Assembly: GCF_008831285.2 (NCBI RefSeq)
Contig: NC_045145.1
Span: 12,152,802 to 12,216,801 of the forward strand
DNA length: 64,000 nucleotides
Reading direction: 5' to 3'
Origin: Nymphaea colorata
Lineage: Eukaryota; Streptophyta; Magnoliopsida; Nymphaeales; Nymphaeaceae
The position numbers and the translations under genes are program-made. Shown here piece after piece: positions 4,623 to 47,336 of this stretch. The notes under the pieces are model-generated. The model saw only the letters and a list, made by a program, of their open reading frames with translations, had not been told where the DNA came from and did not search any database. The stretch's first letter is position 1. Each line of letters begins with the position of its first letter.

Positions 4623-5111
4623 CTGGGATTGGTCAGTATTTGATTTGGGTCTGGTAAATTGAAGTGGTGTTCAACCGAACTGGCGTACCTTTTATGCATC
4701 AACAGAGTCTCGTCTAGCTGTTTTAACTTACTCAAAATGTAGACCATCTCTCTCATTTGATTCTTTTTTGTAATTGAAAACAAATATCAATTATGTGAAT
4801 ACCAGAAAGTACGATGTATAAATGATAAATGTGGTGCTATTTGGCTCAAACAGAAGGCAATGTTTTTTGGCTTGAATCGGTACAGATACTAAAAATTGGG
4901 ATTGGTCAGTATTTGAGCGACCTTCAAAGTTTTGTTTTTTCATATTTAGACCATTAATATGCATTTAATCATCTTCACAAATTTAAAACACATACCCACA
5001 ATCTGAAAAATGTGCCTACATTCTTAAATCAAGAAGATGCATTAGCTAGCACTATACACATTTCTTCAAAATTATATGAGATGTTTGAAAAAAATATGTG
5101 GAAACTGCATT

Positions 5112-6500
5112 TTATAGTGTGTACGGGGCTTGCTGCATGATCAGGTCTTGTTCTGGGATGGTTCTATTTGGGTCTTCCTCATCAAAGTAGAAGGGCTTCA
5201 GGTTACAGACATAAAACACTGAATGCATCTTAAAGTCCGGCGGCAAGTCTAGCTTGTAGGCTAGCTTCCCGATCCTCTTCAGCATTGTAAAGGGTACTTC
5301 ATACTTCCGAATCAAGGACTTGTGTCGGCCACAGAAGATGCCCGTCCGGTCTGGATAAAGTTTCATGAGGACTTGATCGCCCACTCTAAATTCCATCGGC
5401 CTTCAACTCCGATCTACAAATTTCTTCATCTTCTTGGTGGCCTTGTGTAAGAACGCCATAGCCAACTCCATCTGTTCTTGCCAAGGTAGTTCTTTCTTTT
5501 GAGCTGCAAGGGTATGAGGCATCAACGGCTACTGTTCAGTGTCTATCTTGAACGGACTATGTCTAGAAGACTCGCTCTTCTACAAATTGTAACAAAATTG
5601 GGCTACATCAAGTAATTTCTCCCAATTCTTCTGATTTGCACTGACATAGTGGCGAAGGTATGTTTCTAGTCATCCGTTGATCCATTCAGCTTGGTTGTCA
5701 GTCTATGGGTGGAAACTCGTTGAGAATAATAAATCTGAACCCAACAAACTAAACACCTCGTGCCAAAACTTCCCTGTGAAGCAGGCGTTAGATCACTGAC
5801 AATGTTTTTCGGCATGCCCAGTGCTTTACTATATGTTTCACAAACAGCAATCCCCATCTTCTCCACGGGACATTCCTTAGAGGCTGGGATGAAGGTCACA
5901 TACTTTGAAAATCTGTCCACAACCAAAAGCATGGAGCTGAAGCCGTCAACTTTGGGTAAGTTGAAGATAAAGTTCATAGAGAGGCACTCCCATGGACGCT
6001 CTCGAATAGGAAGAGGCTCCGAGAAACTGGCAGTCTTCTGATTCGTCCCCTTGTCCTGCTAGCAGATCAAGCAAGTCTTCACATAAGCCTAGACAATGTC
6101 TCGCATTTGTGGCCAATAATAGCCACATTCAAGGAGCGCCACGTCAGCTCATGGTCAGGATGGTCTGCCAACAATGAGTCATGACACTCCTTCAGCAGCT
6201 CTTGCCGAAGGTTTCCCCATCTAGGCACAAACGCATGTCCGCCCTTCGAAATCAAAAGTCCATCAAGTAATCAGAATCGTCGTGTCTTTCCCACCTCAAC
6301 TGCCTCAACCAAGTGCTTGGCCACAGGGTCCTGTGTCATGCCTTCTCGAATCTGCTCCAGAAGAGCACTCTCCAGCTGTGCTTCGGATGATGTCATCTAA
6401 GTACCTGCCAGCTCTGCCTTCCGACTTAATGCCTCTGCTACGATGTTAGTCTTTCCTGCCTTATACTCTAAGGCAAAATCAAATTCCGCAAGGGTTTCCC
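5112..6500 (-). pseudogene. Ty3/gypsy RNase H end and integrase, left arm
   Basis: Reading the minus strand from 6500: the RNase H end E-F-D-F-A-L-E-Y-K-A-G-K-T-N-I-V-A-E-A-L-S-R-K, then a degraded zinc-binding region (R-W-G-N-L-R-Q-E-L-L-K-E-C-H-D-S), then the integrase core V-D-G-F-S-S-M-L-L-V-V-D-R-F-S-K-Y with F-I-P-A-S. The C-terminal segment at 5396-5112 is open: F-R-V-G-D-Q-V-L-M-K-L, L-P-P-D-F-K-M-H-S-V-F-Y-V. Stops and shifts between segments make it non-functional. Reverse transcriptase is absent. The orientation is opposite to gag and protease at 7061-8724, so the element is rearranged or composite. Confidence 0.85.
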
Positions 6501-6539
6501 TGTTCCCCTATGTCTAGAGTCTGTACAGTCCTTTTTTTT

Positions 6540-6905
6540 TGCAATGTACTTCTTTTGCTTGCGTTGAGTCTTTTGCGTAAGCATGTTCACTTGTGAGCGA
6601 GTACCCTCCCACCGGTCTAAGTGTCAAGTTTGTTTGGGGATTCTATGTTTTGGATGGTCGGCAAAGGAATCCTTGTAAATTGCTTTGGCCATCCTGTAAG
6701 TAAGTTGAGATCTTTCTCCTATCTTACTTTCCTCGTGATGTACTAAGTTTTCCAAGTGAAATACATTGCCAGAGTTCTTTATTAAAACTGTTTTCTTCAT
6801 ACATTTGTCTTCGAAATGCTCTTTGCGCCCCTTCCAATGGTTTGAAGGCTGACGACAATTAGGTTCTTGTCGTGCCACACAGATTGAAGAAGTGAGCCTG
6901 TGACA
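6540..6905 (+). mobile_element. Putative gypsy LTR, left arm
   Basis: Sequence immediately left of the primer binding site ends in tgtgaca, as an LTR end should (..CA). The left limit is not determined because no second LTR copy is visible; 6540 is only where the integrase-side similarity stops. Confidence 0.35.
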
Positions 6906-6907
6906 AC

Positions 6908-6920
6908 TGGTATCAGAGCC
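6908..6920 (+). other. Primer binding site (initiator Met tRNA), left arm
   Basis: tggtatcagagcc is the plant retrotransposon primer site complementary to the 3' end of initiator methionine tRNA. It lies two bases after the presumed LTR end and ~140 bp before gag, and sets the plus-strand orientation of the gag/protease part. Confidence 0.85.
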
Positions 6921-7060
6921 ACGTTCGGCTCAATCTAAAGAAGCAGTTGGATAGTCAGTGTAGAGGAACACGCTGACGAGCATTGGTCGAAAAAGACGTC
7001 GTGGCAGCTCAATACAACCTGCGTAGCACTAAAGGCAAGGGAATAGCCTAGTCCGTCGAG

Positions 7061-8037
7061 ATGAGTGCGTCCCACAGTCAGGAAGACCTGACTGAAGTGG
7101 CGAACAAGCTGGTTGTCGGCGTAACTACTCAAGAGGATGTGTTGTGCAATGCAATAGAGTCCTTCGAGGAAATGTGGGACGAAATGAAGACCATAAGGGA
7201 ACAGATGACCGACTTTATGGCAATGAACAAGTCACTTATTGATACAGTGGCCGCACTGCAAGCTAAAGTTAATGAACTTCAAGCAAAAAACCACACGCTA
7301 CAGTGACAAGTTTCTGTAGGTAGGGGTGAAGATCGACTACCAAGGGTTGACGTCCAGAGGCCAGTGAAATATAATGAAAATCGAGATAGTTGAGTCATCG
7401 ACAACTTCTTGTTCCAGGTGGAATATTACTTGGATCTTCAAGGGATTGTGGGAGATGACCTTCACGTCAAGACTACAGCCATGCTATTTGAGGGCAATGT
7501 TGTTGCCTGTTGGAGATGAAAATGCCTTGACATTCAAAAGGGGATCTACAGAATAGATACTTTTGATGATTTTCAGCGAGAGTTGAAGAACTACTTCATG
7601 CCCCCAAATGCAAGACGCCAAGCTTCTTCGACAGCTTGAAGTCCCAAAATAGACTAGTCCAATTTGTCTTGTTTCAACATATCAGGTACTAGATACATCG
7701 TCAACTTTGGGCACAATCCAAAGTGGAAAGAGGCAATCCCGAGACCTTGGAGGATGGTTATGTGATTGCAAAGCGCTTGGCAGATACTCAACGCAAGAGT
7801 TACACTAACACCTTCAAGCTGTCGAAGAAGCTTGACCATGGAGGAAAGAATGAGGAACGACGAGACCCCAAAGTTGAATCATCGACCCAGCACCAAGGCA
7901 AAAAGAAACCTTTCTTTTGCCAAAACAACAATTACCAAAATAAAGTAGTAACTTGTTGGTTTTGTGAAGGGAGGCACATGGCGAGGCAATGTCCAAAGTG
8001 TTTGTCAAATGAAAATCAAGCAAGTACCTCAAGGTAG
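7061..8037 (+). pseudogene. Ty3/gypsy gag, left arm
   Basis: An N-terminal segment (7061-7306) has a helical, probably coiled-coil stretch (M-N-K-S-L-I-D-T-V-A-A-L-Q-A-K-V-N-E-L). After a TGA and frame changes comes the gag core, with V-E-Y-Y-L-D-L-Q and F-D-D-F-Q-R-E-L-K-N-Y-F-M-P-P-N. The end (7723-8037) carries a zinc knuckle, C-W-F-C-E-G-R-H-M-A-R-Q-C, near 7955-7993. Its spacing is C-x2-C-x3-H-x4-C, one residue shorter than the usual CCHC knuckle. At least two frame breaks make it a pseudogene. Confidence 0.8.
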
Positions 8038-8079
8038 TCTGATAATGCGGTGCAAGGTGAAGAAGGGGAATGACCAAAG

Positions 8080-8724
8080 ATGGGTGAACTTCAACTTTTG
8101 AACACGTTAAAAAGGAAAGAAAAAGCTAAGGTGACAGCGACACCTTTCAATGGACTCATGTACCTAAAAGTTATGGTAAATGGAAAGCCTACCATGGCTA
8201 TGGTAGATACGGGTGTCACTAACAACTTTGTCTCAGATGAGGAGGCAAGGAAATTGGGCCTCACCCCTAAGAAGGAAGAGTTACGCATGAAGGCGGTCAA
8301 CTCAGAAGCAAAACCCATCAACGGAGTGGCCCAGGATGCGGTTGTGAAGATTGAGAGTTGGTCAAAGAAATCCAACTTCTCGGTGGTCCCGATGGATGAT
8401 TTCCAGATGATTCTAGGCATGGGGCTCTTTAGTGCAGCGAAGATGGTCCCGATGCCACATTTGCCCAGTATCAGCATTACGGATGAGATGTCTCTTTGCA
8501 TGGTGCCAATAGTAAAAGTAAAGAAACACAAGGGCAAGGCTGCAACGATATCTGCTCTTCAATTGAAGAGAGGTCTGAAGCACGGTGAAGACACGTACTT
8601 GGTGGCAATCAGGGAAGTGCCTATAGACTCTCCTCGTTTGGTCCCAGAGGTGCTTGCACCTATCGTAGGGGAATTCACAAGGACAATGCCTGCGGAGCTC
8701 CCTAGATGGCTGCCACCGACGTGA
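8080..8724 (+). pseudogene. Ty3/gypsy aspartic protease region, left arm
   Basis: The 214-codon open frame contains G-L-M-Y-L-K-V-M-V-N-G-K-P and the catalytic D-T-G-V-T-N-N-F-V-S at 8205-8234 (family form D-S/T-G-A-T-H-N-F). This is a retropepsin-like domain following gag. It should run into reverse transcriptase, but the frame stops at 8724 and no reverse transcriptase follows, so the element is cut here. The right-arm copy lacks ~33 bp near the start of this frame. Confidence 0.8.
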
Positions 8725-9084
8725 AGTGGATCATGCAATAGAACTGATTCCTGGTGCCAATGCACTTAATAGAAGATGAATGATCATTTGTTTAGCCCTT
8801 CAAAAAACAAAATGGCAAACACCAAAGATCACCACTCTTACAGCCTGCTCGTTCTTCAGGATTAGTCTTGATGCTCACCTGAAACACATGCCCAGAACAA
8901 CCATATAAAATCTTCTTTCATTCAACATAGAGTAAAATAAAAAACCATGTAATCTGAATGTATACAGGCATCCTAGCAGTGCCATTAATGAGAACTCCAA
9001 ATTAGGTGACCATCTGCAAGTTTATCGTGTGCAACAATGGGGAAAACACAACTCATGCACTATCGGTGAAACACAAAATCTACC
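8725..9084. other. Non-coding sequence after the gypsy fragment, left arm
   Basis: AT-rich with no gene or clear repeat ends; mirrored at 42923-43282. Confidence 0.4.
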
Positions 9085-9960
9085 GACCTGGGTCGGCCCA
9101 GCCCGGCCTGAAAAAAATGCGAAAGCTAAGCCCGTTAAGGCTATCGAGCCAGCTCGAAACCCAGGCCGATAAAGTATCGGGCTTTGGGCTTGAGATTATG
9201 CCCAAGGCCCAGCATGGCTCGATTTCTGCTGCCGTGAAGGGTCTCGCTGAGTCCCAACCCCCTTTTACTGCTGTCTTGAAGGTCTCTCTCTCCCCCTCTG
9301 ACTTTCAAGCTTTTCCCTGCTTCAGTAAAGGGTCGCTAAGCCCCATTTTGCTGCTGCCGTGAAGGGTCTCTCCCTTCCCCTCAGTGTTGCTTTCCTTTTC
9401 TTTGTTCTTTCTCCCTTTTCTTGGTTGCTAGAATTATGAGAAATAAAAGGAGGAGAAAGTCAGATGAAGAAGCTGTGAGCACTCTTCATCATCGAAGGAC
9501 CCACCGCACCACCAGAGGAAACAGTAGGAGGGATTGTGGTTTAATCCACTAAACCGCAAGTTTCGAAAACCCTAATCCTAACCCCGCCGTCCACTTCCCA
9601 CCACCAACCTCTGCCGCCTTTGCCCAAAGCCTCCTCCTCTAGGACTGCGAGTCTGTGAGCCCCTTCCTCACCGGTGCGGCCGCTCTCCGCCCCCCCTTCC
9701 TGCAAGTTGGCAACCTCGAAGACTCACTTCGGTCCTTGGCAAAACAGCGAAAAGAAGAGAAGAAAACTCCCCAAGCCCGTTTATTTTTGGAAAAAAATAA
9801 ATAAATTTATTGTCAGGTTTTTTCGGGCACCTGACCAGTTAATTACCGGGCCGGGCTGAGCCCAAAAAAAAAAGCCCGAAACTCAAATCTTCAGGGCCCG
9901 GGCCCGAGTCGGGCTGGGTACCGGGTACCAGGCGGCAGCCCAGCCCGAGGCTTACCCCCA
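9085..9960. mobile_element. GC-rich CCCGGG-type element with a gene-like insert, left arm
   Basis: Both ends carry dense GCCCG/CGGGC sequence in roughly opposite orientation (9085-9112 and about 9890-9955), the style of non-autonomous hAT-like plant elements. Between them lies CT-rich sequence, a telo-box AAACCCTAA at 9567-9575, and a GC-rich coding-like stretch (9586-9700). This could be a captured 5' UTR and first exon of a host gene. Left and right copies differ by ~71 bp just downstream of the telo-box. Confidence 0.4.
9567..9575 (+). promoter_or_regulatory. Telo-box-like motif AAACCCTAA, left arm
   Basis: An exact match to the telo-box element found near the start of many plant translation-related genes, followed by another cctaa unit. 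The right arm has a longer ttaggg-rich version at about 42405-42440. Confidence 0.4.
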
Positions 9961-12370: not shown

Positions 12371-12374
12371 TCAA

Positions 12375-13973: not shown

Positions 13974-13975
<2 letters not shown>
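12714..13975. other. No gene recognised, left arm
   Basis: Short open frames (for example 12758-13069 and 13608-14021) have no recognised domain, and equivalent frames in the other arm are shortened. Treated as non-coding. Confidence 0.4.
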
Positions 13976-14491: not shown

Positions 14492-14934
14492 TGTAAGGAC
14501 TCGACCCACTATCGGGCTCGGACTCCTAGTCCAGCGAATGCAAACCTACTCCTTAACAATTTTGGTTTCAGGCTGAAAAAAGTTAGAAACTAAGACAACC
14601 AACCATTTAACATCTCCCTTTATAAGCCCTTGAAATTATCTCACAATCGAGACTAAACTTTACTATAATACACCCCCTTTAAGGCACATGCATCTGTCTA
14701 TGTGGAACCCTAAGTCTGAATGTTGAACCGTGCTCTGATACCACCATAACGACCCAACCCACTCCTATGCTTGGGTTTATAGTCTTGTAGATCACAACCC
14801 ACCTCCTAGCAATTTCGATTTGAGCTTGAAAAAAGCTACGAACCAGGACAACAAATCATTTAACAACTCCCTTTAGGAGCATTTTAAGGTTTCTCACAAT
14901 CTTCCATATGAGACTAAACTTTTGAATTGTTACA
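14492..14934 (-). mobile_element. Compact TRIM element, left arm
   Basis: Two diverged direct repeats, 14744-14934 and 14492-14672, behave as LTRs on the minus strand. The first starts tgtaacaattc and the second tgtattatagt; the second ends gtccttaca. The inter-LTR region is only ~71 bp. It opens with a primer binding site (tggtatcagagc, minus strand 14743-14732) directly against the first LTR. Sequence beyond 14934 resembles the internal segment again (14935-15000), suggesting the remains of a tandem LTR array. No coding capacity, as expected for a TRIM. No target duplication was confirmed. Confidence 0.7.
14732..14743 (-). other. TRIM primer binding site, left arm
   Basis: gctctgatacca on the plus strand, i.e. 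tggtatcagagc on the minus strand, complementary to initiator Met tRNA. In the right arm the same site carries substitutions (ggcaccagagc). Confidence 0.8.
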
Positions 14935-15304
14935 ATCCACCCTTCTTAAACCACATGCATCCATGCATGTGGGATCCTAAGTCTGAGTGCACGAAGGTGT
15001 GGTAGAAGCAATTGGGCTATAAGCTCTGAGTACTCAAAGGGAGCAGCCAGAATTAGTTTCCCATGTAGAGGAAGGGATGGGTTGCAGGTTGGAGCTGCAG
15101 GACATAATGGGAGGTTTGGATTCTATGGTAGTTATGATGAGAAACCTTAATGCATTGAGGGAGAGAGAAAACAAAACTGCGAGGGCCCCAGATAGGGTCT
15201 TTCGTGAGTCTTTTAATTCATTTATCAGCAACTGTTGGCTGAAGAAAGTGATTTGGAATAAGGAAAGAGCAGAGATAGTATTTACCTCGTACCCTTTCAC
15301 TAGT

Positions 15305-16690
15305 AGGGATGTACACGAGCCGAGTTGAGGTCACTCGACTCCACTCATATCTTATTCAGTCCATGCTCAAGTTGAGCTGTACCAGGTTAGCTTGAGATCA
15401 ACCCGAGTAGACTGAGTCCCGATTTGAGCTAGACTCGTTTTAGTTCCTTTACCAACTGCCCATTTGACTTTACCACTTTTTTGCATTTTAATTTAAAAAA
15501 ATACATAAATAAAATGATAACCTAGATCAAACAAACTTACTTGAACAAATGAACTTACTTGAACTTAGCGATGTCAATATACTGGATTTGAATTGAATAT
15601 CTAATCAAACCGATCCAAAAAAATTGGATGTGAAAAAAATTTTAATATCTGATTAAGAAATCAAATCATATTTAAAAAATGACATCCAACAAGATTCAGA
15701 TTCGGACATGCATAAATACCTGATTGGATTCGGGTCAGATTTTTTTTTTATACAAATTTCCTATATCTAATTCATTTACATTTTGAAAATTGGAAAAATT
15801 CGGTTCAAAATTCAGATTCGGATCTCAATAAAAGAATCAGATTGGGAATGTGAAATCAGATTTTGAATTCAAATTCATATCTGTTTTTTCTTTATTCATA
15901 TTCAAATTCGAACTCGAATATGAATATGTGAATATCCAAAAAAATGGATATAATTAAGGGTATGAGGTAAAATATGAGAATTCGTTTTCATTTTTCACTT
16001 TTTAATGTCTTACCGACATTAATAAAAATTCAAAAAAGTTATTAAAAAGATAAAATAAACCAAAACAAACTAAAATATGATTATATTTTTTAGAAAGTAT
16101 TGCAAAAAAAGGAGAAAATGCAATGATTTTGATCTTTCCAAAATATCATGACAATAATTTCACTTTTTCTCATTTCTTTTTTTTTTCTTTTTTTAACACA
16201 AACAGGCCAATAATCAGACTACTGTATATATCTATATAGATCCTCCTGGTAAGTAAATATGTCAATATATCCTCAATTAATGTGAATTAACGGCTAGGAA
16301 TGTTCCTCTAGTCGAGCCAACTCGGGTACGACTCGAAGTTGCCCAGTTAAGCTTGACTTGAACTTGGCTTGTAAGTTAAACGAGTCGAGTTGGAGCCTAA
16401 ATGATAACTCAAATTTGTAAATGAGTCGAGTTCGAGTTGGAAGAACCCAACTCAGTTAAAATCATTCAACACTAATACTTATTTTTATAATTTCAAAAAC
16501 ATAAAATGGCTTAAATAAAAATATAGAAAGTTTAAGCACAAAATATATATTACGAAACATGAGCTTAAACATGCAAAGCTCGAGCTTGGACTCAGTTAAG
16601 TGAGTCGAGCTGAAGTCAAACTATATATGAGTTTAGTCGAGTTCGAGCGGGCCCAGCTCGAGCTCGGCTTGCTTTTTGTACATTCTTATT
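15305..16690. mobile_element. CGAG-rich hAT-like element with nested repeat, left arm
   Basis: It begins agggatgtacacgagccgag (about 15307) and ends with agctcggcttgctttttgta followed by cattctt. Reversed, that end resembles the start, so terminal inverted repeats are likely. Both ends are rich in gagtcgag/ctcgactc blocks. A separate GGAT/AATC-rich repeat is nested at 15563-15962. The family recurs at 57591, 59057-59272 and 61619-62326. Mirrored at about 35232-36617. Confidence 0.55.
15563..15962 (+). repeat. Dispersed gatgtcaat...attaagggtat repeat, copy 1
   Basis: Starts gatgtcaatatactggattt and ends attaagggtatgaggt, with tracts of ggat/attcgaat/cagattc between. Related copies lie at 35960-36359, 56938-57345, 58172-58640 and 59890-60325. 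It encodes no protein. I do not recognise the superfamily. Confidence 0.6.
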
Positions 16691-18432
16691 AACCGCTTTT
16701 GAGAAATTTTGTTCCCAGGATTTCATCTAAAAGGTACATTGGAACTTCATCTGGTTTGAAATGCTACTAAGAGGTTCACCATAAATCATAAATTGTTGAA
16801 GAAAAGCAATGTATCAGCAACTAGTCTTCTTGCTTTAATTTTCTACAGCTGCCAGATGATTACGGATTGGCAATGAGATTCAGATTTGGTTAATCGGGTT
16901 TCACACTCTTTTTGGGCTAATGGCTGGTTGCTGCTTCAAGTGTGCCAGAGGAAATGGGCCAATGGTTGGTTGCTGGTTCGAGTGGCATGGGTGACGCGCC
17001 CGGAAGAAAAGCAATGTATTAGCACGTTCTAATGCAAGTACCAACTTAGCCAAGCGATCAAAAATAGAAATTTAATTAATCAGGCATTGCTAAAAGAAGA
17101 CGAAGAAACATTCTAGCTAAGAACTTCACACCCTTAATTTCTTTGGTAGTTCTATGGATTTCAAGGGCTTCCTCTTGCACTGTCAGGTGGTAGTTTGTTT
17201 AGGTTCGGTTTGATTTTACAATCTAAATTTCACAAGATATTTGAGGTATAGCAATACCCTGATCATGATATATGAACTCATATATAAGGACTCTAGGGAT
17301 TCAAACGAGTTGGATTTCTAACTTGAAGTTGGTTTACTTTAATTGAATCCAGATTCTGATGTGGGTACCAAAAAAAAAAAAAAGTGCCAAATCACTAGTT
17401 AAATCATATGTATGTATGCTATAATATTTAGACCATATTCACAACTGTTTCTGCATTTTAAACTATGGTCTTTTACAGGGAGCTTGAAAATATCGTAACA
17501 TTTCAAAAAAATTAAAATCTTTAGAATTTATGAAAAAGCCGAATAAGTACGAAACTAATAAGACAACATAAAAATAATAAAAACTATTAGAAATAAAAAT
17601 AAAAAATGGAAACGATCAGTTTGTTATTAGAAAAAGTCAAAAAACACTTAAAAACATGCAAAACGCCATTTGCTTTTTCTTGCTTCATGTTTTCTCAAAG
17701 AAACAATCTTTTTGCCATTTTATGTTAGGCTGATCGAGACCAAAACCCAAATTCATATCCAGAACTCAAATTCATATTCGTTCGATTAAAATAAAAAACA
17801 TATTATTTTTTAAATGTAAAATAATTTTTTTAATATAAAATATATTTTTAATAATAAATTATTTATTATTATTCAAATAAAAATTATATTAAATAACATA
17901 CCAAACCGAGCCGAACCCCATCAAATCGACTCAGACCGACCTGTTAGGTTATCAGATAAACTGGTTTTTTGGGACCAAATTGGAAGCCAATCAGATTCAG
18001 TACGGAGTTCCATCGAGTACTCGACCCAGCCATAAGACACTGATATATTTGTCACGCTTTTAACACGTTTTTTTTTTTTTAAAATTATGTTTGTTTTGAT
18101 TAGACCATATGGACTTTCCATTGGATTCAAAGGTGCACAACCACACCTAGTTATAAATTCAGTAACTATATATGTTTATATAATTTTTATAAGTCATGCT
18201 TTCTACGTTAATTCTCAAATAATATTAGCCAGAACCCGAATTCTGAAGCAAGGGTCAGCACAGGGAGGGTTGCTCGAGTTGTCAGCATCTCCATTTTCCT
18301 CTGCCTATTTCAGAGATCAGAAATTGAATGGTTCCTCATTTTCAGTTTGATCTTTATTTGGCGTCCTTCCCTCCCATTGGGTAAGAATTGCTTCTCTTTC
18401 TCTGCTCTTCCATCTGCTAAGAAACGGATGAG
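16691..18432. other. AT-rich sequence upstream of the NLR pseudogene, left arm
   Basis: No gene. Very AT-rich near 17500-17900; a T-run lies at 18069-18080. Could hold decayed regulatory sequence of the NLR; nothing specific is visible. Confidence 0.4.
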
Positions 18433-20215
18433 ATGGCAAAAGTAATCAATGCACTTGCAGAAACAGCTACTTCTCATTTGTTGGGGGCTGTAACCATTTT
18501 GTTGGAAGAGAAGGTGAAGGTCATTTTGAATGCAAAAGATGATCTCAGGAAGCTGGAATGCTTTCAAAAGGCGATCGAGGAGGTAGACAGCAAGCCCCTT
18601 TTCAGCAATGACCGCGACAAAGATCGAGAGTGAGCTCAAGGATGCCTTTTACGATGCCCAGGACATTGGGCTTAGCAAAAGGGAGAAGGATTCGGCATTA
18701 AATAGAAAGGTACGAAAGCCTTGGAATACTCTATACTCATGCTTTAAAGAACATGTTTCTTTTCCCTACCACCTTGGTAATGAAATCAAGAAAATCAACC
18801 AAAGGCTTGATGAAATAAATAATGATAGTAAATGGTGGATTTAGGTACGATCAAAACAACACCAAAAGTGAGTGGTGAAGGTCCTGTTAGTGGTGTACAA
18901 CCACCCATAGGCAGGGAGGGTGATAAGAATGCCATAATCGAAAAGCTCTTGTTTGATGGAGCTACGCTGAGTAGTGCGCTGGATAGACATGTAGGTATTT
19001 CTATTATCTCCATGACAGGTCAAGGCGGGATTGGCAAGACAACTCCTGAAAAAAGTTATTGAAAAGAAGGTAGTCAAGAAGTATGGAAAAAGAGGATTGG
19101 GAGGTCAATGCAGATAGTGGGATTTTGGAATGGAACATGTCTGCCTCATCATCATCCTTTGGATGTGGTGACATTGTTCCTGGTCTCATATTGAGCTACG
19201 ATAACTTGCCACATTATTTGAGGAATTGTGTTGTATATTGCAGCATTTATCCAAAGGATTATGTGATAGGAAAGGATGAACTGGTCATCAATGGTTGGCT
19301 CAAGGATTAATTGAGGAAAACGAAGGGATTGATGCCAAACTGACTGCAAATCAATGTATTAATGATTTGATAAAGCGATGTTTATTGAAGAAACTGAAAA
19401 AAAGAAGCAACTGAAACTACATGATATTTTGCATGATCTTGCCTTACATATAGGTCGAGAGGAATATAGTCATGCTTCTGCTACTGAGCACACTCGACAT
19501 CTATCTCTGCTCAGCATAGACTATCCAGAACTGCTCATGCATGGTGCCTCAGGAGCAGCAAATAAGTTGCGGACATTATTGGCTGATTGGCATTTGGTTA
19601 ATATTGCATGCATTATCAATGTAAAGTGGCTGAGGGTGTAGTCATTGAAGGGCTGTGGGATCCATGACTTCCAAATTCCATTGGAGAACTTGCACTTTTA
19701 AAGTATCTGGACTTAAGCTATTCTAGAGTTAGACGGTTCCCTAGTTCAATTGGCAAACTTTGTAACTTGGAGATGTTGAGTTTGAATAATAGTAATATTA
19801 TTGAGTGACCAAGGAAATGTTTGAACACTGGAACTTAATGTATCTCAGGCTTGAAAGTACTTGGTGTTTGAGTTTTATAGCTGCAGGCTTGGGCAAGCTT
19901 AGCAATTTATGGACCTTAAAAGAGTTTCTTGTATGTGATGTAGCACAAACACAAGGGGATGCAATATTAGAGAACTACGAGGCTTGAATAAACTAAAAGA
20001 GAAGTTGTCAATAGAAGGTTTGGGGGCAACATTAAAAGCAACCGATGCAGAAAAAGCACAATTGCTTAAGGAGAAACTTGGTCTAATCAGTTTGGAATTA
20101 CACTTTCAGGCACAAAGGTGATGACAAAGTCACTAGTGCTTCGGAACAAAGTGGTGTTTTGGAGGCTTTGCAACTTCCAGATGACCTTGAGAAGTTGAAG
20201 ATTTGTCATTACAAA
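18433..20215 (+). pseudogene. CNL (CC-NBS-LRR) resistance pseudogene, left arm
   Basis: The ATG at 18433 opens a coiled-coil domain (M-A-K-V-I-N-A-L-A-E-T). The frame shifts near 18625-18632, just before E-L-K-D-A-F-Y-D-A-Q-D-I, the EDVID-like stretch. The P-loop G-Q-G-G-I-G-K-T-T lies near 19020-19045 and is followed by P-E-K-S-Y. The rest of the NB-ARC (kinase 2, RNBS-B/C, GLPL) is deleted, and the sequence resumes at W-E-V-N-A-D-S-G-I-L-E-W with Y-C-S-I-Y-P-K-D-Y. L-H-D-I-L-H-D-L-A then stands where M-H-D is usual, followed by a short LRR with stops. The LRR runs into the CACTA-type segment at ~20216. NLRs are cytosolic immune receptors; this copy cannot act as one. Confidence 0.9.
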
Positions 20216-21509
20216 GGGCATAGTGACAGATGCAGGTCAAGCGGGGACGACATCAACCCACTCCCTTTAAAATGGTACTTGTTCTCAAGGCCCAATGAGT
20301 GGGCCTCTCACCATCCAAGTCCCAAGTATCGTGCTATCCAGGACCTAACGGTGCACGTCTTCTTGCATAATCCACTGAAGAAGGCCTGCCAATATCATGA
20401 GGTTGCGAATAACATCTTCATGCTAGTCGGCAACTAGTGATTGCCTTGGTGAGGACCATAGATGAGTGCAGACTGTTAAGCTTGTTGTAGGCAATGAAGA
20501 AGGGTCATTGGACTATAAAGGGTTCCCACATAGCCAAAAGATGATGAATGTCCCGAGATCACTTTGCAAGTGTTCTTGTTTAAATTTTGCCCATGCTGGA
20601 TCATGGAGAGGTTCTCCATGATTGTCACAGCAAGCCAGGGAGGTTTCACTGTACCGGTTAAGTGCACAATTAAGCCAAGTTGCGGGCGATTGAGAGATGC
20701 TTGTTGGAAAGGACTGCTTTGGCATGGATCTGGCAAGCAGCCAATGGAAGCAACACAATTTGCGTTGTTTGTACAGCTGCAGAAAACACATAGTAGTGCA
20801 CTCTTGGAATGGCTTAATTGTCGGGCTGTGAGGCTTCTTTCGCTTGAGTTGGCCTAGGATGTTAGCGAATGTGAAATTTTGGAAGAATGTTTGTTGACCT
20901 TAGTACCTTCAATTTGATAATTAATTGTATAAAATGTCTACACAATTACAAAACCCTAAAGTTTACTCTAATTTTTGTTATTGCTGGATTACAGCGCATT
21001 GTTGCCTGATTTTTGCCTCAAATTTAGACCACGTCTAATTCAAGTTCACATATAATTATTCGTAGAATATTATTTTCATAGGTTGTCATTTGAATGCTTT
21101 TTTGGATGTTAGAATGTTTTTCATCACCTGCCTAGAATGTTTTCCGTCACCTGCCTTTTTAGCCACCCACCAAGCGTTTTTGTCGAATTGTTTAAATGAG
21201 TGGAAAGTTATATTTTACCGATGGACAGTCTTGCTGTCGATAGAATTTTACCCAAGGCCACTAGCATCTTGGAAATAATAGATTATTCCCGACGTGACAG
21301 GATGTTGGTAATAACCAATATTTACCTTTGTTTAGTTCATGCTGGTGATACCTTACACTAGACTCTTCTATCCAGTGTGTCGACGAGGATGTTTACCGAC
21401 ACTCCCTTTATCAACAAAAGAATGAAATGTTGGTAAAACCATTGCTGACATGCATTCTATTTTCACTGACATTCGGTGGCTGTCAGTAATGCTTAGGTTT
21501 TTTGTAGTG
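20216..21509 (-). mobile_element. CACTA-type segment in the NLR LRR region, left arm
   Basis: The terminus at 21509 reads, on the minus strand, cactacaaaaaacctaagca, a CACTA-type end. It is followed by subterminal repeats of (g/c)tgac/gtcagt type (21390-21490). The segment continues through short unconvincing open frames to the NLR boundary near 20216, where LRR codons stop (c-h-Y-K-G). A second CACTA end was not found, so the extent on this side is defined by similarity to the diverged copy at 52335-55150. Confidence 0.55.
21482..21509 (-). mobile_element. CACTA terminal inverted repeat end, left arm
   Basis: gtagtg at 21504-21509 preceded by a T-run; reverse of the termini at 30461 and 52961. 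The flank differs from TIR to TIR only beyond this point by short GC-rich sequence. Confidence 0.65.
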
Positions 21510-24500
21510 CTAGCTGAGCTGTTGCCCAAGGCATCCCCAGCTCCAGGCAGGCCCCTGCCCAAGGCGACCCCTGCCCAAGATGTCCCCTGCCCAAAGCATC
21601 ATTTGCTTGGCGTCCACCTACTCCCCACCTTCAAGTCAAGCCCAGCCTGGCCTCCCCTATTCTGCCCCGTTCTAGGCACAATGCCAACCCATTCTAGCCT
21701 CAATCCTCCCATCGACACATGGTTAGATTTCAACCTACCTTGCATATGATTTCAATAGATTTAATTGGGCGGCTCATTGTATTCAACGAAAAATAAACAA
21801 TGGGTTTTAACGAGCAGCCATTAAGGGGCTGGCTGCAGGGGACGATCAACCCACTTTCACCATGGCCAGTGACTCATAGCAGCCATGGTGGGGCGATCAT
21901 CATCCTCTATCAAGCCAAAGTCAAACACTCAATTACTATTTTGCAATAATCAGCTAGATCGGCCACTTGCATGCCAAATTTCTAGTCGCTTGACACTACA
22001 AATCAGACCCTAAGCAGCCCGATTTAAAAGCTGTCCATTGGGTCACCACGAAAAAAAATATACATATTAAAAGCATATGTGCATCACGATTCTCACAACT
22101 AATCCAAACTAAATTTTCTATTTTTGAAAGTTGGAAATAGTGTATTCAAACATAGGAATGAGAATAACACTGGCTTGGAAGAAAATGTTGTTCATTCGTC
22201 TATGTGATTGAATGTTTTAATGATGTATGCAAAGAAAAAAAAGACGAATGAAGCCTGAATGGTTTCCTTACTGGTTGGATGAGCAACAAATCAGACTTCA
22301 TTATCTCATCAAATCATTTCCCCAAAGAATCTGATCCACTCAGTTTATGAGTGCGGTCTATATTGTAACTGGAATATACCAATTGCAATGAGCCCGTTTT
22401 AACCTTTTCGTTTGTGAAATTTTCAGAAATGCTCGTGATTTTGAAAATCAGCAATTAATAAAAATATATAATCTTGTTGGGTTTCAAAAGGAAATCCTCA
22501 GACTTTGATCAAGATCAAAACCTCAAAAGAAATTCAATGTTTTACAAAACCCATTTGGGAATACTTATTACCAAAAATCCAATCATCTCCAAAAATAATG
22601 CTATTTTCAGAAATCAAAATTCAAGAATCATTTTTTCAAAACGTTTCTTCCTAAGGGAATTCACAAAAGTGATATTGCTACCCAAAGAGAAAATTTGTCA
22701 AAGCCCAAATTCTCCAAATTTTCAAACAAATTAATTCCTTTTGCCTACCATCTAGTAAAAAATGAGTTGAAATCAGCCTATCAAATGAATTTTTGCCTAC
22801 CATCTAGTAAAAACCTAAGCTTATGTCCCCCTCCACATCAAGGATGTGCTTGGGGAACAGTCTTATGTTTTCCACCTCCAAGATGGACTTGTGCCTATGT
22901 GGGATTAAATTTAATTATGCATGGAGAGAAATAGAGCGAAGCATGAATATACACATTTCATGCATACATGCACTCACAACATGAATGCACCTACTCAAAT
23001 TCACCAAAATCTAAGTGAATCAAGTTGGAGTAGCTTTCATGATTATGTCATATTGCCACACAAACTTGAGCACCTCACTTATTTTGACACAAAAGCACCA
23101 AATTTTCAACATGGTTATAAAACCCAAACTTTCATAATCAATTTCAAAACGATTCCATTGGATTTTTCTCAAAATCAAACTAATTTTCAAATCCAAAAAT
23201 CTCAAGCAAATTTTCATAAGCTTGACTAAAATTCCAAAAAAATAAAATTAAAAATTTCAAATTTTTCAATAAAGAAAATTCTCCCAAAACTGGACTTGGA
23301 CTGCCAATTTCCAATTTTTTAATCTCATTTCATGATCAAAACCAACCAAATAAAATCAAATTTCTCAAAATACCAAAACTAGATTCAAATATCAAAATCT
23401 TAAACCCAAAAATGATTTCAAAAATTCTGAATTGATCAGTTCCAACCATTCCAAACCCAATTGGGTTCATAAGAAATTGTTTCTCCAATAGGTTATTTGG
23501 ATTACAAGTCGGGGTAAGGAGGTCAAGTATTTCAGTAAATTTATTCAATAATATTGTCATTTCTCCTTAAAGAAATAAAAAAGAGGAGGTCCTTGGGTTC
23601 CATCACTCGGCAACAATAAAAAATAAATTCCCATCCACTGATTGCATTCCTCTGGCTGCCACTGTCTCTAGCTCACATTCATCAAAATAAGAAGGAAACA
23701 TCCGAGAGAAGGTGAGATGCGCCGATACCATTTGGGAGCCAAGGGTCCAAACTTAAGAAAAACATAAGTAGACCGTTCGAGTTCTTTTCTGAAAAGGATG
23801 TGATCATAAAGGAAGGTAACACCATGTTAAAAATAATACATCTTGAGTATAGATTCTAAAGGATAGAGATCAAATTAGTGGGAAAGATTGACAAAGTTAA
23901 TAAGTACAATATGAGATAAAGGCATATAATTTGGTCATAAATCACCAAATAAGGCTTTGTGCACATCCAACACTTAAAAAAAGAGGTATATTGAGATAAC
24001 TTTGCATCATGATAATGCAATATCAAGTTATGTTTATATACTTTATCTAAATGACTTATTATTAGTATAGATTCTTCCTTAGGCCAACTAACGGTAAAGT
24101 TTTTCTACTTTTCTTTGTTCATCCATCAGTATACCACAAATTACCACTCATAGTACTAAAGAGAGGGTTTTTCTGCCCAAGGTGTGGTCTAATTATAAGA
24201 CTTAGTCTTATGCTACTAACTAAGACCAAGCTCAGTAACATGATGACCAAGACAAATAAATATATGAAGTTTTAAAATATGAACAAACATGCAAGATTGG
24301 TTGTCCCTAATGCAATGTTGCCTAAGACAGTGATTAAAATAAGGTAGAAGAACAAACACTGTTTTCAATCAAACCTTAAATTGAAGAGGGTTATATTTGA
24401 TCCTAGATCTAGGTGAACATGATTGATCCTCCTTAATTAGTTATATGCAAAAGAGCAAATACAATCATCAAACAATGTAATGTAATGTCAATGGAGTCAA

Positions 24501-24740
24501 GTTCAAAGAAAGAGAAATGCTTTAACATAGGCAATATAGATGATGTTCAAATTAGTGGAAATGCATCAATGATAATCATAGTTAGACAATGACGGGTCCC
24601 ATCATGGTCGTCGTCTGTTTGTATTCTAAAATTTATTTTAGTTTTTTGAGTCCTTCAGAAAAATACAGTTTTATTTTAGAAATGAGAAAGAAAGGAACTC
24701 GCCTATTGGTACAGGGATTAGCCATTCCCGGTGACTTTAC
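21510..24740. other. Inner part of the left arm, no gene recognised
   Basis: Includes a GCCC/CAAGG-rich block (21520-21700) and a long AT-rich region (22050-24740). Low-complexity open frames (22474-22934, 22921-23229) resemble decayed retrotransposon leader or 3' UTR sequence. The innermost ~150 bp (24589-24740) has LTR-end style sequence (gggattagccattcccggtg). Confidence 0.4.
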
Positions 24741-24801
24741 AGGGCAAAATTGTCTTATGTTACAAATCGGGCCTGTTTGTAACATAAGACAATTTTGCCC
24801 T
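24741..24801. repeat. Perfect 26-bp fold-back at inner junction
   Basis: 24741-24766 (agggcaaaattgtcttatgt onward) is the exact reverse complement of 24776-24801, with a 9-base loop. The first base of the stem is the first base after the end of the left palindrome arm. Confidence 0.95.
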
Positions 24802-25930
24802 TTAAACTATGAGTTTTCAAAAATGACCTATATTTTTTATGTGTGGAACCCCTTTGGAAGCGAGGGAGGCCAAAGCCATCCGTTATTGGTCTAAAACAAG
24901 CCAATAAGGAGGCATTTCGCCCTCTCTTCCACATGCCCTGCACACTGCCAGACGTTCTGAACGAGCAGAGCATAGCCAGATCATGCACTCAAGCTAGAGA
25001 ACACGGCCACGCCAGGCACTCTCACTTGGCCACACGTGAGCAGCCCATCATGGCTGCATGGGCCTGGGCCGTAATGAGGCTGGGACTGCAGCCTCTGGAG
25101 GCCCTGTTTTGACTAAAAGAAGGTGGTTTTTAGTCTGTTGTGTGGGCACTAGTCCTGCCCACACCCCCCAAAGGGATCTTTTCAGGGGTAAGGGCCAACC
25201 TCACTTGGTCAAAACCTATCTTGAAAAAATAATAATAATAATTCAAAAATACTTAGAATTTGCATGATAATGTTGAAATTACAAAAATTAAAATTTTTAG
25301 CTTTGGATCCAAAACTCTCTATAAATACCTTTAAAATCTTCTCTCTTGGCATGAGCTAACCCTTATGAAACCTCTAGTACTTTCTCAATTGAAGACTTAA
25401 AGTTTTTTTCCTAACTCTCCCTCCCAATTTCTCTCATCTTATCTTCTTATTCTTCTCCAACCTTGGAAGCAAGCTTCTCCAACTTTCACTCTTCAAGAGA
25501 GTACAATGAGACCTTTCGAAGAGAAATGCTCAACACCTTGGAACTTCACTCGATGAAGCTTTAGGATCAACTGGAGAAGAAGACTCATTTCCTAAAACCA
25601 TTTTCATTAGAAGTATGTAGTCATCCTATCATTTTCTTTCTTTTCATTTTCCTTCGCCATCTTCCTGTAGTCATGCAAGAGAGCTCTGAGGGTCTCCTAT
25701 CAACAGTCAAGAGCTACTCTTGACTGCACTGGGAGTATAATCAAAACAAAATAAATTACATTTCTCCATTTATTTTTGAAATATGATTCTTCATTTCTTT
25801 GCTCATTGAATGTGTGCATCGTTCATGTTTGAGATGATGTTCATGCATGGTAGACTGATTTTTTTCTTAAATATGCGAATGAACGGTAAAAATGAGTGCT
25901 TGAATTGGGATTTCTTTGTTATTATCTAGA
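24778..25930 (+). mobile_element. Putative LTR or promoter block in the spacer
   Basis: A plant LTR-like start (tgtaacataag) at 24778 is followed about 540 bp later by a TATA-like ctataaatac at 25319 and then CT-rich leader-like sequence. No matching second LTR is visible in the window, so this is a guess from layout only. Confidence 0.3.
25319..25328 (+). promoter_or_regulatory. TATA-box-like motif
   Basis: ctataaatac sits in a CT-rich context and is followed by a leader-like region. A single motif match in AT-rich DNA is weak evidence, but it is the best candidate promoter inside the palindrome loop. Confidence 0.3.
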
Positions 25931-26600
25931 TTTTTGAGCTTGGGATTTGTCCACCTCGGAAAAACCCCTTACGAATATGTACATGTTAAAATACTTCTTC
26001 CTGATATTTTTACATTTAACATTTCTCTTGGTTTTAATTCATATATATATGCATATATACATGTTACATGTTATATACGTATACGTGTACACAAATATCT
26101 CTCTTTATCCTTCTTTCTCTTTGATTTACTATATTCTTTTATAAATTTTCATATACATATACATATAAATAAATATACATGTGTAATCCACTTTCTCTCC
26201 CTCTCTCTGTCTTTTCGAGCTAATATTTTCTTTTTACTAACTTTCATATATATATATATATATATATTATTTATTTATTTCTCTATCTCTCTCTCTCTAA
26301 AATCTTCTTCTTCTATCTCTCTTTCTCTTAAATTTAAAGTCTTTCTTTTATAAATTTTCATACACGCATGTGTGCACACGCACACACACACACACACATA
26401 TATATATTTATACACACACGCACACATCCTTCTTTCTCTCTTTAAAATTTTTCTTTCTTTCTTTTTAAAATCTCTTTTTCTTTCTCTTTCTCCCTCTTTC
26501 TCTTGGCTTAAAATCTTTTTGTTTTTTTCTTTCATTCACTTGAATAACTCTTTCTTAATATCTAAGATTTTAATTTTCATTTATCGACTTCACTAAAACC
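25916..26600. repeat. Microsatellite-rich block (AT, CA, CT)
   Basis: Successive runs: alternating AT near 26041-26060 and 26247-26270, CT-rich tracts at 26190-26320 and 26425-26520, and a CA run near 26380-26398. Open frames through it are low-complexity and not genes. Confidence 0.85.
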
Positions 26601-27210
26601 AAAACTCAAGTAAGGACCCAATATTAGAATCATGCTTGATTGTCTACAACTCCATTTTACTTTCAATCTTTTTTTCTCTTTATAAGAATACTTAAAATAA
26701 ATATGTTAATAAATCTACATGTATGTGATGGTAGGGATGTCCTTAAATGAATGATATGATAGGAATTAATAATTTATTTTTAATCATTTAGAATCGATTC
26801 ATTAATACATTCACATTCACTAGTGGAATTCACGAATGAGCACAAGTATTTCTCTTAGAAAACTTAAACAAGATGAGATGGATTTAGAGAAAAATCTTAA
26901 ACCTACTTAAGTTCTTAAAGGAACACTAAATCGATTTCGACAAGAAATTTTTAAAATACCCATATTATCTTTGAAAGATTTTTAAATGATATTTGCAAAG
27001 ATTTCTTCATTCAAAAATATTTCAAATCATAATGCTTTATTTTCTCAAATGATGCTTTAATTTTTTTTATCTAAAGTATTTGTAATATCAATTCTTCAAC
27101 CTTTTTTCCAAGCACCACATTGCATTTAAAATGTAAAATATCATTAACTAAAAATAAAATACATCAAAAATAAGCATAGCCCTTAGATTAGTTACCCCAG
27201 TAAAGTCACC

Positions 27211-37920: not shown

Positions 37921-37954
<34 letters not shown>

Positions 37955-43894: not shown

Positions 43895-43936
43895 CTTTGG
43901 TCATTCCCCTTCTTCACCTTGCACCGCATTATCAGA

Positions 43937-44913
43937 CTACCTTGAGGTACTTGCTTGATTTTCATTTGACAAACACTTTGGACATTGCCTCGCCATGTGC
44001 CTCCCTTCACAAAACCAACAAGTTACTACTTTATTTTGGTAATTGTTGTTTTGGCAAAAGAAAGGTTTCTTTTTGCCTTGGTGCTGGGTCGATGATTCAA
44101 CTTTGGAGTCTCGTCGTTCCTCATTCTTTCCTCCATGGTCAAGCTTCTTCGACAGCTTGAAGGTGTTAGTGTAACTCTTGCGTTGAGTATCTGCCAAGCG
44201 CTTTGCAATCACATAATCATCCTCCAAGGTCTCGGGATTGCCTCTTTCCACTTCGGATTGTGCCCAAAGTTGACGATGTATCTAGTACCTGATATGTTGA
44301 AACAAGACAAATTGGACTAGTCTATTTTGGGACTTCAAGCTGTCGAAGAAGCTTGGCGTCTTGCATTTGGGGGCATGAAGTAGTTCTTCAACTCTCGCTG
44401 AAAATCATCAAAAGTATCTATTCTGTAGATCCCCTTTTGAATGTCAAGGCATTTTCATCTCCAACAGGCAACAACATTGCCCTCAAATAGCATGGCTGTA
44501 GTCTTGACGTGAAGGTCATCTCCCACAATCCCTTGAAGATCCAAGTAATATTCCACCTGGAACAAGAAGTTGTCGATGACTCAACTATCTCGATTTTCAT
44601 TATATTTCACTGGCCTCTGGACGTCAACCCTTGGTAGTCGATCTTCACCCCTACCTACAGAAACTTGTCACTGTAGCGTGTGGTTTTTTGCTTGAAGTTC
44701 ATTAACTTTAGCTTGCAGTGCGGCCACTGTATCAATAAGTGACTTGTTCATTGCTATAAAGTCGGTCATCTGTTCCCTTATGGTCTTCATTTCGTCCCTC
44801 ATTTCCTCAAAGGACTCTATTGCATTGCCCAACACATCATCTTGAGTAGCTACGCCGACAACCAGCTTGTTCGCCACTTCAGTCAGGTCTTCCTGACCGT
44901 GGGATGCACTCAT
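43937..44913 (-). pseudogene. Ty3/gypsy gag, right arm
   Basis: Mirror of 7061-8037. It has the coiled-coil-like N-terminal segment, the broken core and the C-W-F-C-E-G-R-H-M-A-R-Q-C knuckle. A few amino-acid differences from the left copy (for example V-A-T-Q-D-D-V-L-G for V-T-T-Q-E-D-V-L-C) show independent point changes. Confidence 0.8.
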
Positions 44914-45053
44914 CTCGACGGACTAGGCTATTCCCTTGCCTTTAGTGCTACGCAGATTGTATTGAGCTGCCACGACGTCTTTTTCGACCAATGCTCGTCA
45001 GCGTGTTCCTCTACACTGACTATCCAACTGCTTCTTTAGATTGAGCCGAACGT

Positions 45054-45066
45054 GGCTCTGATACCA
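45054..45066 (-). other. Primer binding site (initiator Met tRNA), right arm
   Basis: ggctctgatacca on the plus strand, mirror of the left-arm primer site and intact. Confidence 0.85.
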
Positions 45067-45473
45067 GTTGTCACAGGCTCACTTCTTCAATCTGTGTGGC
45101 ACGACAAGAACCTAATTGTCGTCAGCCTTCAAACCATTGGAAGGGGCGCAAAGAGCATTTCGAAGACAAATGTATGAAGAAAACAGTTTGAATAAAGAAC
45201 TCTTGCAATGTATTTCACTTGGAAAACTTAGTACATCACGAGGAAAGTAAGATAGGAGAAAGATCTCAACTTACTTACAGGATGGCCAAAGCAATTTACA
45301 AGGATTCCTTTGCCGACCATCCAAAACATAGAATCCCCAAACAAACTTGACACTTAGACCGGTGGGAGGGTACTCGCTCACAAGTGAACATGCTTACGCA
45401 AAAGACTCAACGCAAGCAAAAGAAGTACATTGCAAAAAAAAAGGACTGTACAGACTCTAGACATAGGGGAACA

Positions 45474-46862
45474 GGGAATCCCTTGCGGAATTTGATTTTG
45501 CCTTAGAGTATAAGGCAGGAAAGACTAACATTGTAGCAAAGGCATTAAGTCGGAAGGCAGAGCTGGCAGCTACTTAGACGACATCATCCGAAGCACAGCT
45601 GGAGAGTGCTCTTCTGGAGCGGATTCGAGAAGGCATGACGCAGGACCCTGTGGCCAAGCACTTGGTTGAGGCAATTGAGGTGGGAAAGACACGACGATTC
45701 TGATTACTTGATGGACTTTTGATTTCGAAGGGCGGACATGCGTTTGTGCCTAGATGGGGAAACCTTCGGCAAGAGCTGCTGAAGGAGTGTCATGACTCAT
45801 TGTTGGCAGACCATCCTGACCATGAGCTGACGTGGCGCTCCTTGAATGTGGCTATTATTGGCCACAAATGCGAGACATTGTCTAGGCTTATGTGAAGACT
45901 TGCTTGATCTGCTAGCAAGACAAGGGGACGAATCAGAAGACTGCCAGTTTCTCGGAGCCTCTTCCTATTCGAGAGCGTCCATGGGAGTGCCTCTCTATGA
46001 ACTTTATCTTCAACTTACCCAAAGTTGACGGCTTCAGCTCCATGCTTTTGGTTGTGGACAGATTTTCAAAGTATGTGACCTTCATCCCAGCCTCTAAGGA
46101 TTGTCCCGTGGAGAAGATGGGGATTGCTGTTTGTGAAACATATAGTAAAGCACTGGGCATGCCGAAAAACATTGTCAGTGATCTAACGCCTGCTTCACAG
46201 GGAAGTTTTGGCACGAGGTGTTTAGTTTGTTGGGTTCAGATTTATTATTCTCAACGAGTTTCCACCCATAGACTGACAACCAAGCTGAATGGATCAACGG
46301 ATGACTAGAAACATACCTTCGCCACTATGTCAGTGCAAATCAGAAGAATTGGGAGAAATTACTTGATGTAGCCCAATTTTGTTACAATTTGTAAAAAAGC
46401 GAGTCTTCTAGACATAGTCCGTTCAAGATAGACACTGAACAGTAGCCGTTGATGCCTCATACCCTTGCAGCTCAAAAGAAAGAACTACCTTGGCAAGAAC
46501 AGATGGAGTTGGCTATGGCGTTCTTACACAAGGCCACCAAGAAGATGAAGAAATTTGTAGATCGGAGTTGAAGGCCGTTGGAATTCAGAGTGGGCGATCA
46601 AGTCCTCATGAAACTTTATCCAGACCGGACAGGCATCTTCTGTGGCCGACACAAGTCCTTGATTCGGAAGTATGAAGTACCCTTTACAATGCTGAAGAGG
46701 ATCGGGAAGCTAGCCTACAAGCCAGACTTGCCGCCGGACTTTAAGATGCATTCAGTGTTTTATGTCTGTAACCTGAAGCCCTTCTACTTTGATGAGGAAG
46801 ACCCAAATAGAAGCATCCCAGAACGAGACCTGATCATGCAGCAAGCCCCGTACACACTATAA
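45474..46862 (+). pseudogene. Ty3/gypsy RNase H end and integrase, right arm
   Basis: Mirror of 5112-6500. The integrase core segment V-D-G-F-S-S-M-L-L-V-V-D-R-F-S-K-Y lies near 46020-46075. The open C-terminal segment is at 46578-46862 (F-R-V-G-D-Q-V-L-M-K-L). Stops separate the pieces. Confidence 0.85.
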
Positions 46863-47336
46863 AATGCAGTTTCCACATATTTTTTTCAAACATCTCATAT
46901 AATTTTGAAGAAATGTGTATAGTGCTAGCTAATGCATCTTCTTGATTTAAGAATGTAGGCACATTTTTCAGATTGTGGGTATGTGTTTTAAATTTGTGAA
47001 GATGATTAAATGCATATTAATGGTCTAAATATGAAAAAACAAAACTTTGAAGGTCGCTCAAATACTGACCAATCCCAATTTTTAGTATCTGTACCGATTC
47101 AAGCCAAAAAAACATTGCCTTCTGTTTGAGCCAAATAGCACCACATTTATCATTTATACATCGTACTTTCTGGTATTCACATAATTGATATTTGTTTTCA
47201 ATTACAAAAAAGAATCAAATGAGAGAGATGGTCTACATTTTGTGTAAGTTAAAACAGCTAGACGAGACTCTGTTGATGCATAAAAGGTACGCCAGTTCGG
47301 TTGAACACCACTTCAATTTACCAGACCCAAATCAAA

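Follow-up and report, generated by a model that had tools for sequence, protein, structure and literature searches.

A 42.7-kb palindrome in the Nymphaea colorata genome and the traces of its probable origin by fold-back break repair

Introduction

The closest described counterpart of the structure reported here, a 42.7-kb palindrome in a 64,000-nucleotide stretch of Nymphaea colorata DNA, is the palindrome W.P1 on the W chromosome of the willow Salix purpurea. W.P1 is about 42.7 kb long, has arms of about 20 kb that are more than 99% identical and a 2.6-kb spacer, carries NB-ARC genes in its arms and is reported to undergo gene conversion (PMC7023750). The Nymphaea stretch, C8:12152802-12216801 (contig NC_045145.1 of assembly GCF_008831285.2), is called the window throughout. 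Its palindrome nearly equals W.P1 in total size, spacer and arm length, has arms above 99% identity and contains sequence of the nucleotide-binding leucine-rich-repeat (NLR) family. The two differ in gene content: the arms of W.P1 also hold SMR, RR and HCT genes, none of which was found in the scanned pieces, a subset of all open reading frames (ORFs), of the present arms. Furthermore, W.P1 is sex-linked, and the Nymphaea palindrome has an identifiable original copy and templated filler at its new junctions. The match in size looks like a coincidence; nothing seen points to the same locus.

Several processes that create inverted sequence at broken DNA ends provide a second set of comparisons. 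In yeast, short inverted microhomology primes short fold-back templated inversions at double-strand breaks, mostly of 5-34 bp (PMC11724301). The 23-nt filler at the inner junction of the Nymphaea palindrome resembles these; unlike the yeast products as described there, its hairpin is followed by another inverted copy, 20 kb in length. In Arabidopsis, polymerase-theta end joining leaves filler taken from the flanks of the break and uses microhomology of a few bases (PMC10923293). The Nymphaea junctions carry such filler, with microhomology of a few bases at the outer join and at the fold-back, but they belong to a natural and old event, and their assignment to the theta type is made by analogy. 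Breakage-fusion-bridge cycles with inverted duplication have been described in plants after Cas9 breaks (PMC10615209); the present structure is likewise an inverted duplication that would follow a break, but it spans 20 kb and a dicentric stage is hypothetical here. The VIM4-VIM2 inverted repeat of Arabidopsis Cvi-0 is, similarly, a polymorphic plant inverted-repeat locus; it yields small interfering RNA, whereas the Nymphaea palindrome is known from its sequence alone (PMC13213937).

The large plant palindrome is thus a known type, and what is new is a legible record of its birth and a possible recurrence on one chromosome. The initial annotation of this DNA had called arms of such length and similarity rare in described plant nuclear sequence, a statement that has to be qualified in view of the published willow palindrome (PMC7023750). 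A search of the open-licence literature found no paper on an inverted duplication in Nymphaea colorata, and one for a Nymphaea palindrome with NLR genes returned nothing relevant.

Structure of the palindrome

The palindrome and its immediate surroundings are composed as follows (positions in the window).

1-4623, no strand assigned: left flank, a member of a dispersed family, cut at 4623
4624-4638, plus strand: outer filler, 15 nt, or 19 nt (4624-4642) with a TTTG overlap
4639-24740, minus strand: arm A, 20,102 bp, read as the derived inverted copy
19297-21451, within arm A: mismatch-free stretch of 2155 bp, a candidate gene-conversion tract
24741-24763, minus strand: inner filler, a 23-nt inverted copy of spacer positions 24779-24801, or 26 nt with an AAA overlap, with a 9-nt loop
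24764-27200, plus strand: spacer, read as the ancestral continuation of arm B and part of a repeated element
27201-47336, plus strand: arm B, 20,136 bp, read as the original copy
47337-64000, no strand assigned: right flank, which belongs to the original block

A self-BLAST of the window pairs 4639-24744 with 47336-27196 in four collinear inverted pieces of 99.0-99.2% identity. In a full alignment of the arms the whole palindrome measures 42,698 bp, with 2,460 bp between the arms. The arms differ at 121 of 20,014 aligned positions (0.605%) and by 23 indel events, which leave 123 bases missing from arm A and 88 from arm B. Their identity is 99.4% on aligned bases and 98.4% with gapped bases counted; on aligned bases it exceeds the 99% that characterizes the gene-converting palindromes of the human Y and willow W type. 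Beyond 4639 and 47336 the alignment collapses. A chance origin of a 20-kb inverted match is impossible.

The initial annotation had described a 42.7-kb palindrome with 20.1-kb arms separated by point changes and several indels, and the self-BLAST and the full alignment bear this out. Its coordinates agree with the arm ends found here, and the breakpoints can be refined: the left flank ends at 4623 and is followed by filler and then the arm at 4639 (outer junction), and arm A ends at 24740 and is followed by filler and then the spacer at 24764 (inner junction).

Which arm is original

Similarity searches with the arm, the spacer, the flanks and a sequence called X, which lies to the left of the spacer in other copies and is attached to it there, were run against the genome (407,766,735 bases in 783 sequences). 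Forty candidates were scored in each search, and the counts given here are those among the matches listed. Arm, spacer and right-flank sequence recurs at about 88-99% identity on at least C4, C6, C8, C11, C12 and C13 and on several unplaced contigs, and both arms belong to a dispersed NLR/transposon block. This membership had escaped the initial annotation, as had the status of arm B and two further inverted duplications on C8 that are described below.

At seven of the seven other spacer loci compared (L002-L008), the spacer continues past 27200 into arm sequence, just as it joins arm B in the window. On its far side all seven diverge from the window at 24764-24765. None of the 45 listed matches to X, from 40 scored candidates, falls near C8:12.15 Mb. 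At the other end of arm B, C779 is unbroken over 46600-50000 and thus through the boundary with the right flank at 47336; the same boundary is crossed on C40, C105 and C229 and at C12:14.17M, C11:22.98M and C8:0.14M.

The ends of arm A behave differently. The sequence patterns of its outer and inner junctions each occur a single time in the genome, with up to three mismatches allowed. All 26 rows of left-flank relatives that reach the breakpoint end at 4622 or 4623, ten more end sooner, and in three relatives (L028-L030) the sequence beyond 4623 differs from that of the window.

In the other copies, therefore, the blocks stand in the order X, spacer, arm B, right flank, and in the window X is replaced by an inverted arm with patched seams. 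An uninterrupted ancestral copy is accompanied by an inverted copy with new junctions, which is what a fold-back duplication would produce. Since other copies repeat the junctions of arm B on its two sides (spacer and right flank), while each junction of arm A was matched a single time in the genome and contains templated filler, the sequence indicates that the old arrangement consists of spacer, arm B and right flank, and that arm A is the new inverted copy.

A left-flank copy is also present at C8:1.4 Mb, where, judged from positions only, it lies about 57 kb from a spacer in the same relative orientation.

Junctions of the inverted arm

Both junctions of arm A contain short sequences that have a recognizable source nearby. 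The outer filler, with its TTTG overlap, reproduces arm positions 4897-4915 without a mismatch, from a source 258 bp inside the arm. As a control, none of 20,564 window 15-mers matched the first 600 bases of the arm. In C779 and at C8:0.14M the arm end has no such filler. The inner filler forms a hairpin with the adjacent spacer, with a stem of 24736-24766 and 24776-24806 that is 97% identical; at no other place in the window does an exact stem reach 24 with a loop of 3-15, and the three matches listed all refer to this one place. The relatives compared are without fillers at both junctions.

The joins themselves show microhomology of 4 nt (TTTG) at the outer junction and 3 nt (AAA/TTT) at the fold-back. 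The ancestral sequence, as seen in the relatives, has TTT at the break that is able to pair with AAA and could thereby prime the fold-back copy. Templated insertions are thus present at both new junctions, as is expected of break repair with template switching. As read from the sequence, such fillers mark end joining with template switching, and neither an assembler nor a transposon would be expected to leave them.

Divergence of the arms

The 121 mismatches between the arms could be polarised with the help of related copies: 60 are changes in arm A, 51 are changes in arm B and ten are ambiguous. The 60 states of arm A are absent from all related copies compared. Derived C>T changes affect 18 of 814 CG, 12 of 1198 CHG and 19 of 5942 CHH sites (context taken from arm A), a bias to CG and CHG that appears to be the one expected for methylated plant DNA. 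At five larger indels the relatives match the longer allele, so that they look like private deletions: 33 bp (two of two relatives) and 43 bp (six of six) in arm B, and 69 bp (three of three), 27 bp (three of three) and 13 bp (seven of seven, with small margins) in arm A. With C779 as the outgroup, 20 derived sites group arms A and B together to the exclusion of the copy at C8:1.37M, the alternative groupings having 1 and 0; in the comparison with C8:24.6M the corresponding numbers are 23, 1 and 0.

Substitution rates are of the order of 7e-9 to 1.3e-8 per site per year. With these two values the duplication would be 434 or 233 thousand years old, roughly 230-430 thousand years.

The mismatch-free stretch at 19297-21451 is a candidate for local exchange between the arms. 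A gap as long as its 2155 bp was found in 6 of 5000 rate-weighted shuffles, although the divergence from C779 is also lower there (1.67% vs 2.34%), which weakens the case. One arm-to-arm gene-conversion event may well have taken place in this stretch. A gradient of gene conversion toward the centre of the palindrome was considered and rejected: the outer 5 kb does differ more between the arms (48 of 4,970), yet the outgroup C779 behaves likewise (3.6-3.8% vs 1.8-2.8%). The excess in the outer 5 kb is mostly rate variation because the outgroup shows it as well, and the single stretch is what survives the rate-weighted test.

Proposed origin of the palindrome

We consider it highly probable, on the evidence of the sequence, that the palindrome is a genuine fold-back inverted duplication formed by break repair with template switching. 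The process could have taken the following course. A break at the boundary between the spacer and X, at 24764, would have removed X. The exposed 3' end would then fold back through the 3-nt AAA/TTT match, leaving the 9-nt loop, and copy 23 nt. Next, either by direct joining or by a change of template, the end of this hairpin would be connected to the 20-kb segment at its inner end, and the resulting 20.1-kb inverted copy would become arm A. The opposite end would be closed by the left flank, broken at 4623, which would copy 15 nt lying 258 bp inside the arm and settle on the 4-nt TTTG. By analogy, the chemistry would be polymerase-theta end joining combined with template switching. As the source of the 20 kb, break-induced synthesis and a fusion of two sister chromatids with breaks 2.4 kb apart both fit the sequence. 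Afterwards each arm would have evolved independently as methylated DNA, apart from one possible gene-conversion tract.

Several observations weigh against this description or parts of it. Where the inner hairpin switches into the arm, the join lacks exact microhomology. Over the outer 5 kb the copy at C8:0.14M forms a near trichotomy with the two arms, with shared derived sites in the ratio 2:1:0 and with 48 differences between A and B, 43 between A and C8:0.14M and 43 between B and C8:0.14M; the outer part of arm A may come from a separate source. At 14639-17138, arm A differs from arm B by 0.88% and from C8:1.37M by 0.81%, and it is as near to C8:1.37M as to arm B because B has changed more there. 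Finally, the average reads behind the N. colorata assembly are about 9 kb long (49.8 Gb in 5.5 million reads), shorter than one arm (PMC7015852). As the arm exceeds the average read, its 20-kb extent and the connection of one arm A junction with the other may be the least secure parts of the structure.

Old copies do not usually give a clear picture of how a large palindrome arose. In the window the original, the inverted copy and both scars can be read, and the relatives show the state before the event, so that the mechanism of birth and the age of a 20-kb plant palindrome become directly testable. The structure further points to inverted duplication during break repair, besides unequal crossing-over, as a way in which NLR-rich blocks are moved.

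Alternative explanations

A breakage-fusion-bridge cycle is a version of the proposed origin rather than a contradiction of it. Broken sister chromatids would fuse through the spacer, the bridge would break at the copy of 47336, and the left flank would be attached to the broken end; the other inverted copies on C8 would go back to this episode or to a related one. We regard this as possible but would not assume it. The asymmetric spacer, the templated scars at both joins and the loss of the neighbour X are compatible with such a cycle, as are the near trichotomy with the C8:0.14M block and the precedent of the Cas9-induced breaks cited above. Two other inverted duplications lie on C8, and by the same BLAST measure the arms at 1.5 Mb (99.1%) and those of the present palindrome (99.0-99.2%) have diverged equally. 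The repeat at 0.14 Mb, however, has arms of 99.8% identity, so that it is younger and falls outside any single event, and local synthesis with template switching gives the same scars without a dicentric chromosome.

An error of assembly, in which two haplotypes or paralogous copies were joined head to head, seems unlikely. The published N. colorata assembly comprises 409 Mb in 804 scaffolds and 14 pseudo-chromosomes and was built with Canu from PacBio RSII reads (PMC7015852). An arm difference of 0.6% is a plausible allelic distance, the genome contains many copies of the block, the mean read may be shorter than the arms, and a 100-N gap interrupts another copy of the block. Nevertheless, there are no N in the window or in 11 of 12 fetched stretches, which include the 10 kb upstream of the window. 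The centre of the fold-back, from arm through spacer to arm, is 2.46 kb wide and fits within one average read of about 9 kb. The filler at each arm A junction is copied from within about 300 bp and is not something that assemblers make, so that both ends of arm A would have to be false joins mimicking repair scars; and the state of arm A at 60 sites is seen in no related copy compared. The initial annotation had left two options, an ageing inverted duplication and a misjoin of haplotypes. The private substitutions and deletions and the templated scars favor the former, and the two scar-mimicking false joins required by the latter speak against it.

Transposition, by which arm A or the whole palindrome would be mobile or carried by a mobile element, is very improbable. 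The arms, the spacer and the left flank are all repeated and the arms contain degraded retroelement pieces, but inspection by eye showed no target-site duplication at 4639 or 47336, the other copies continue through both arm ends, and the joins of arm A each gave a single match in the genome. A transposon with inverted ends was rejected on the same grounds, there being neither a target-site duplication nor termini shared among the copies.

Reads with a missed adapter, or fold-back reads, are palindromic and are expected to have near-identical arms and no unique spacer; that such a read was built into the contig is scarcely credible and was rejected, as the arms carry independent, context-dependent substitutions and deletions.

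Other inverted duplications on C8

Two further inverted duplications on C8 came to light through the sequence that they have in common with the window. The second, at C8:134001-149500 (L031/L032), has the NLR region of the right flank on both sides, in arms of at least 3.8 kb with 99.8% identity. A 1.4-kb piece of the arm is inserted there at the boundary between right flank and arm, and the fold-back join has a 3-nt filler. The third, at C8:1497501-1514500 (L039/L040), has arms of at least 4.4 kb with 99.1% identity and a 7.7-kb spacer. The fold-back joins at 0.14 and 1.5 Mb were read, and templated filler was established at neither.

It is conceivable, though at present doubtful, that the NLR/transposon block on C8 repeatedly yields germ-line fold-back palindromes (at 12.16, 0.14 and 1.5/24.8 Mb, with arms of at least about 99% identity and each readable at base resolution). 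If this were true, fold-back repair would be a recurrent engine of the expansion of resistance-gene blocks in an early-branching flowering plant.

Among the matches listed, the inverted layout of C8:1.5 Mb is seen again at C8:24.78-24.80M. Matching and similarly spaced block copies lie near both ends of C8 (1.37-1.51 Mb and 24.64-24.80 Mb), a pattern that could reflect a duplicated tract of greater length or haplotigs placed wrongly. The 100-N scaffold gap at C8:1372235-1372334 (L024:2235-2334) abuts one block copy, and the arm match begins just after it.

Content of the arms and flanks

The coding remnants and genes recognized in the window are the following.

4218-4670, minus strand: copia RNase-H-like ORF of the left flank, labeled by eye from the ORF
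5115-9359: degraded Ty3/gypsy pieces of arm A, SH3/Tf2-1 and integrase pieces on the minus strand and gag-protease on the plus strand
5669-6058: integrase-like ORF, named by eye, with no Pfam match
18313-20434, plus strand: degenerate CC-NBS-LRR fragments of arm A, mirrored in arm B at about 31.5-33.6 kb
about 47657-51312, minus strand: CC-NBS-LRR gene of the right flank, in several ORFs separated by introns or breaks
about 60327-61567, minus strand: second NLR of the right flank, apparently broken, containing stops

A Pfam scan of the copia RNase-H-like ORF gave no match. The NLR sequence of the right flank shows Rx_N, NB-ARC, WH_DRP and LRR domains. The gypsy pieces of arm A match PF13975 (1.5e-12), PF24626 (1.8e-15) and PF17921 (5.9e-4, under its cut-off). 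In each arm the integrase-side pieces (minus) and the gag-protease pieces (plus) are opposed, at 5115-9359 in the window, which has the appearance of an older nested or inverted retroelement remnant. The NLR fragments of the arms match the NLR ORFs of the right flank in tblastn at 46-64% identity in pieces, some with stops and with the middle of the NB-ARC missing; in Pfam they reach PF25019 at 2.1e-4, under its cut-off. No intact gene was found within the arms among the ORF pieces scanned, a subset of the ORFs.

A scan of the window for RNA families found no known family at the gathering score, and the spacer had no match in a plasmid collection. The inner arm end, the spacer and the lost X (23461-27200 in the window) look like one repeated element with many copies genome-wide at about 73-81% identity. 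The right flank recurs, among the matches listed, on C779, C40, C105, C229, C12, C11 and C8, and at 58212-58430 it contains a 109-bp unit twice in tandem, the two copies being 94% identical.

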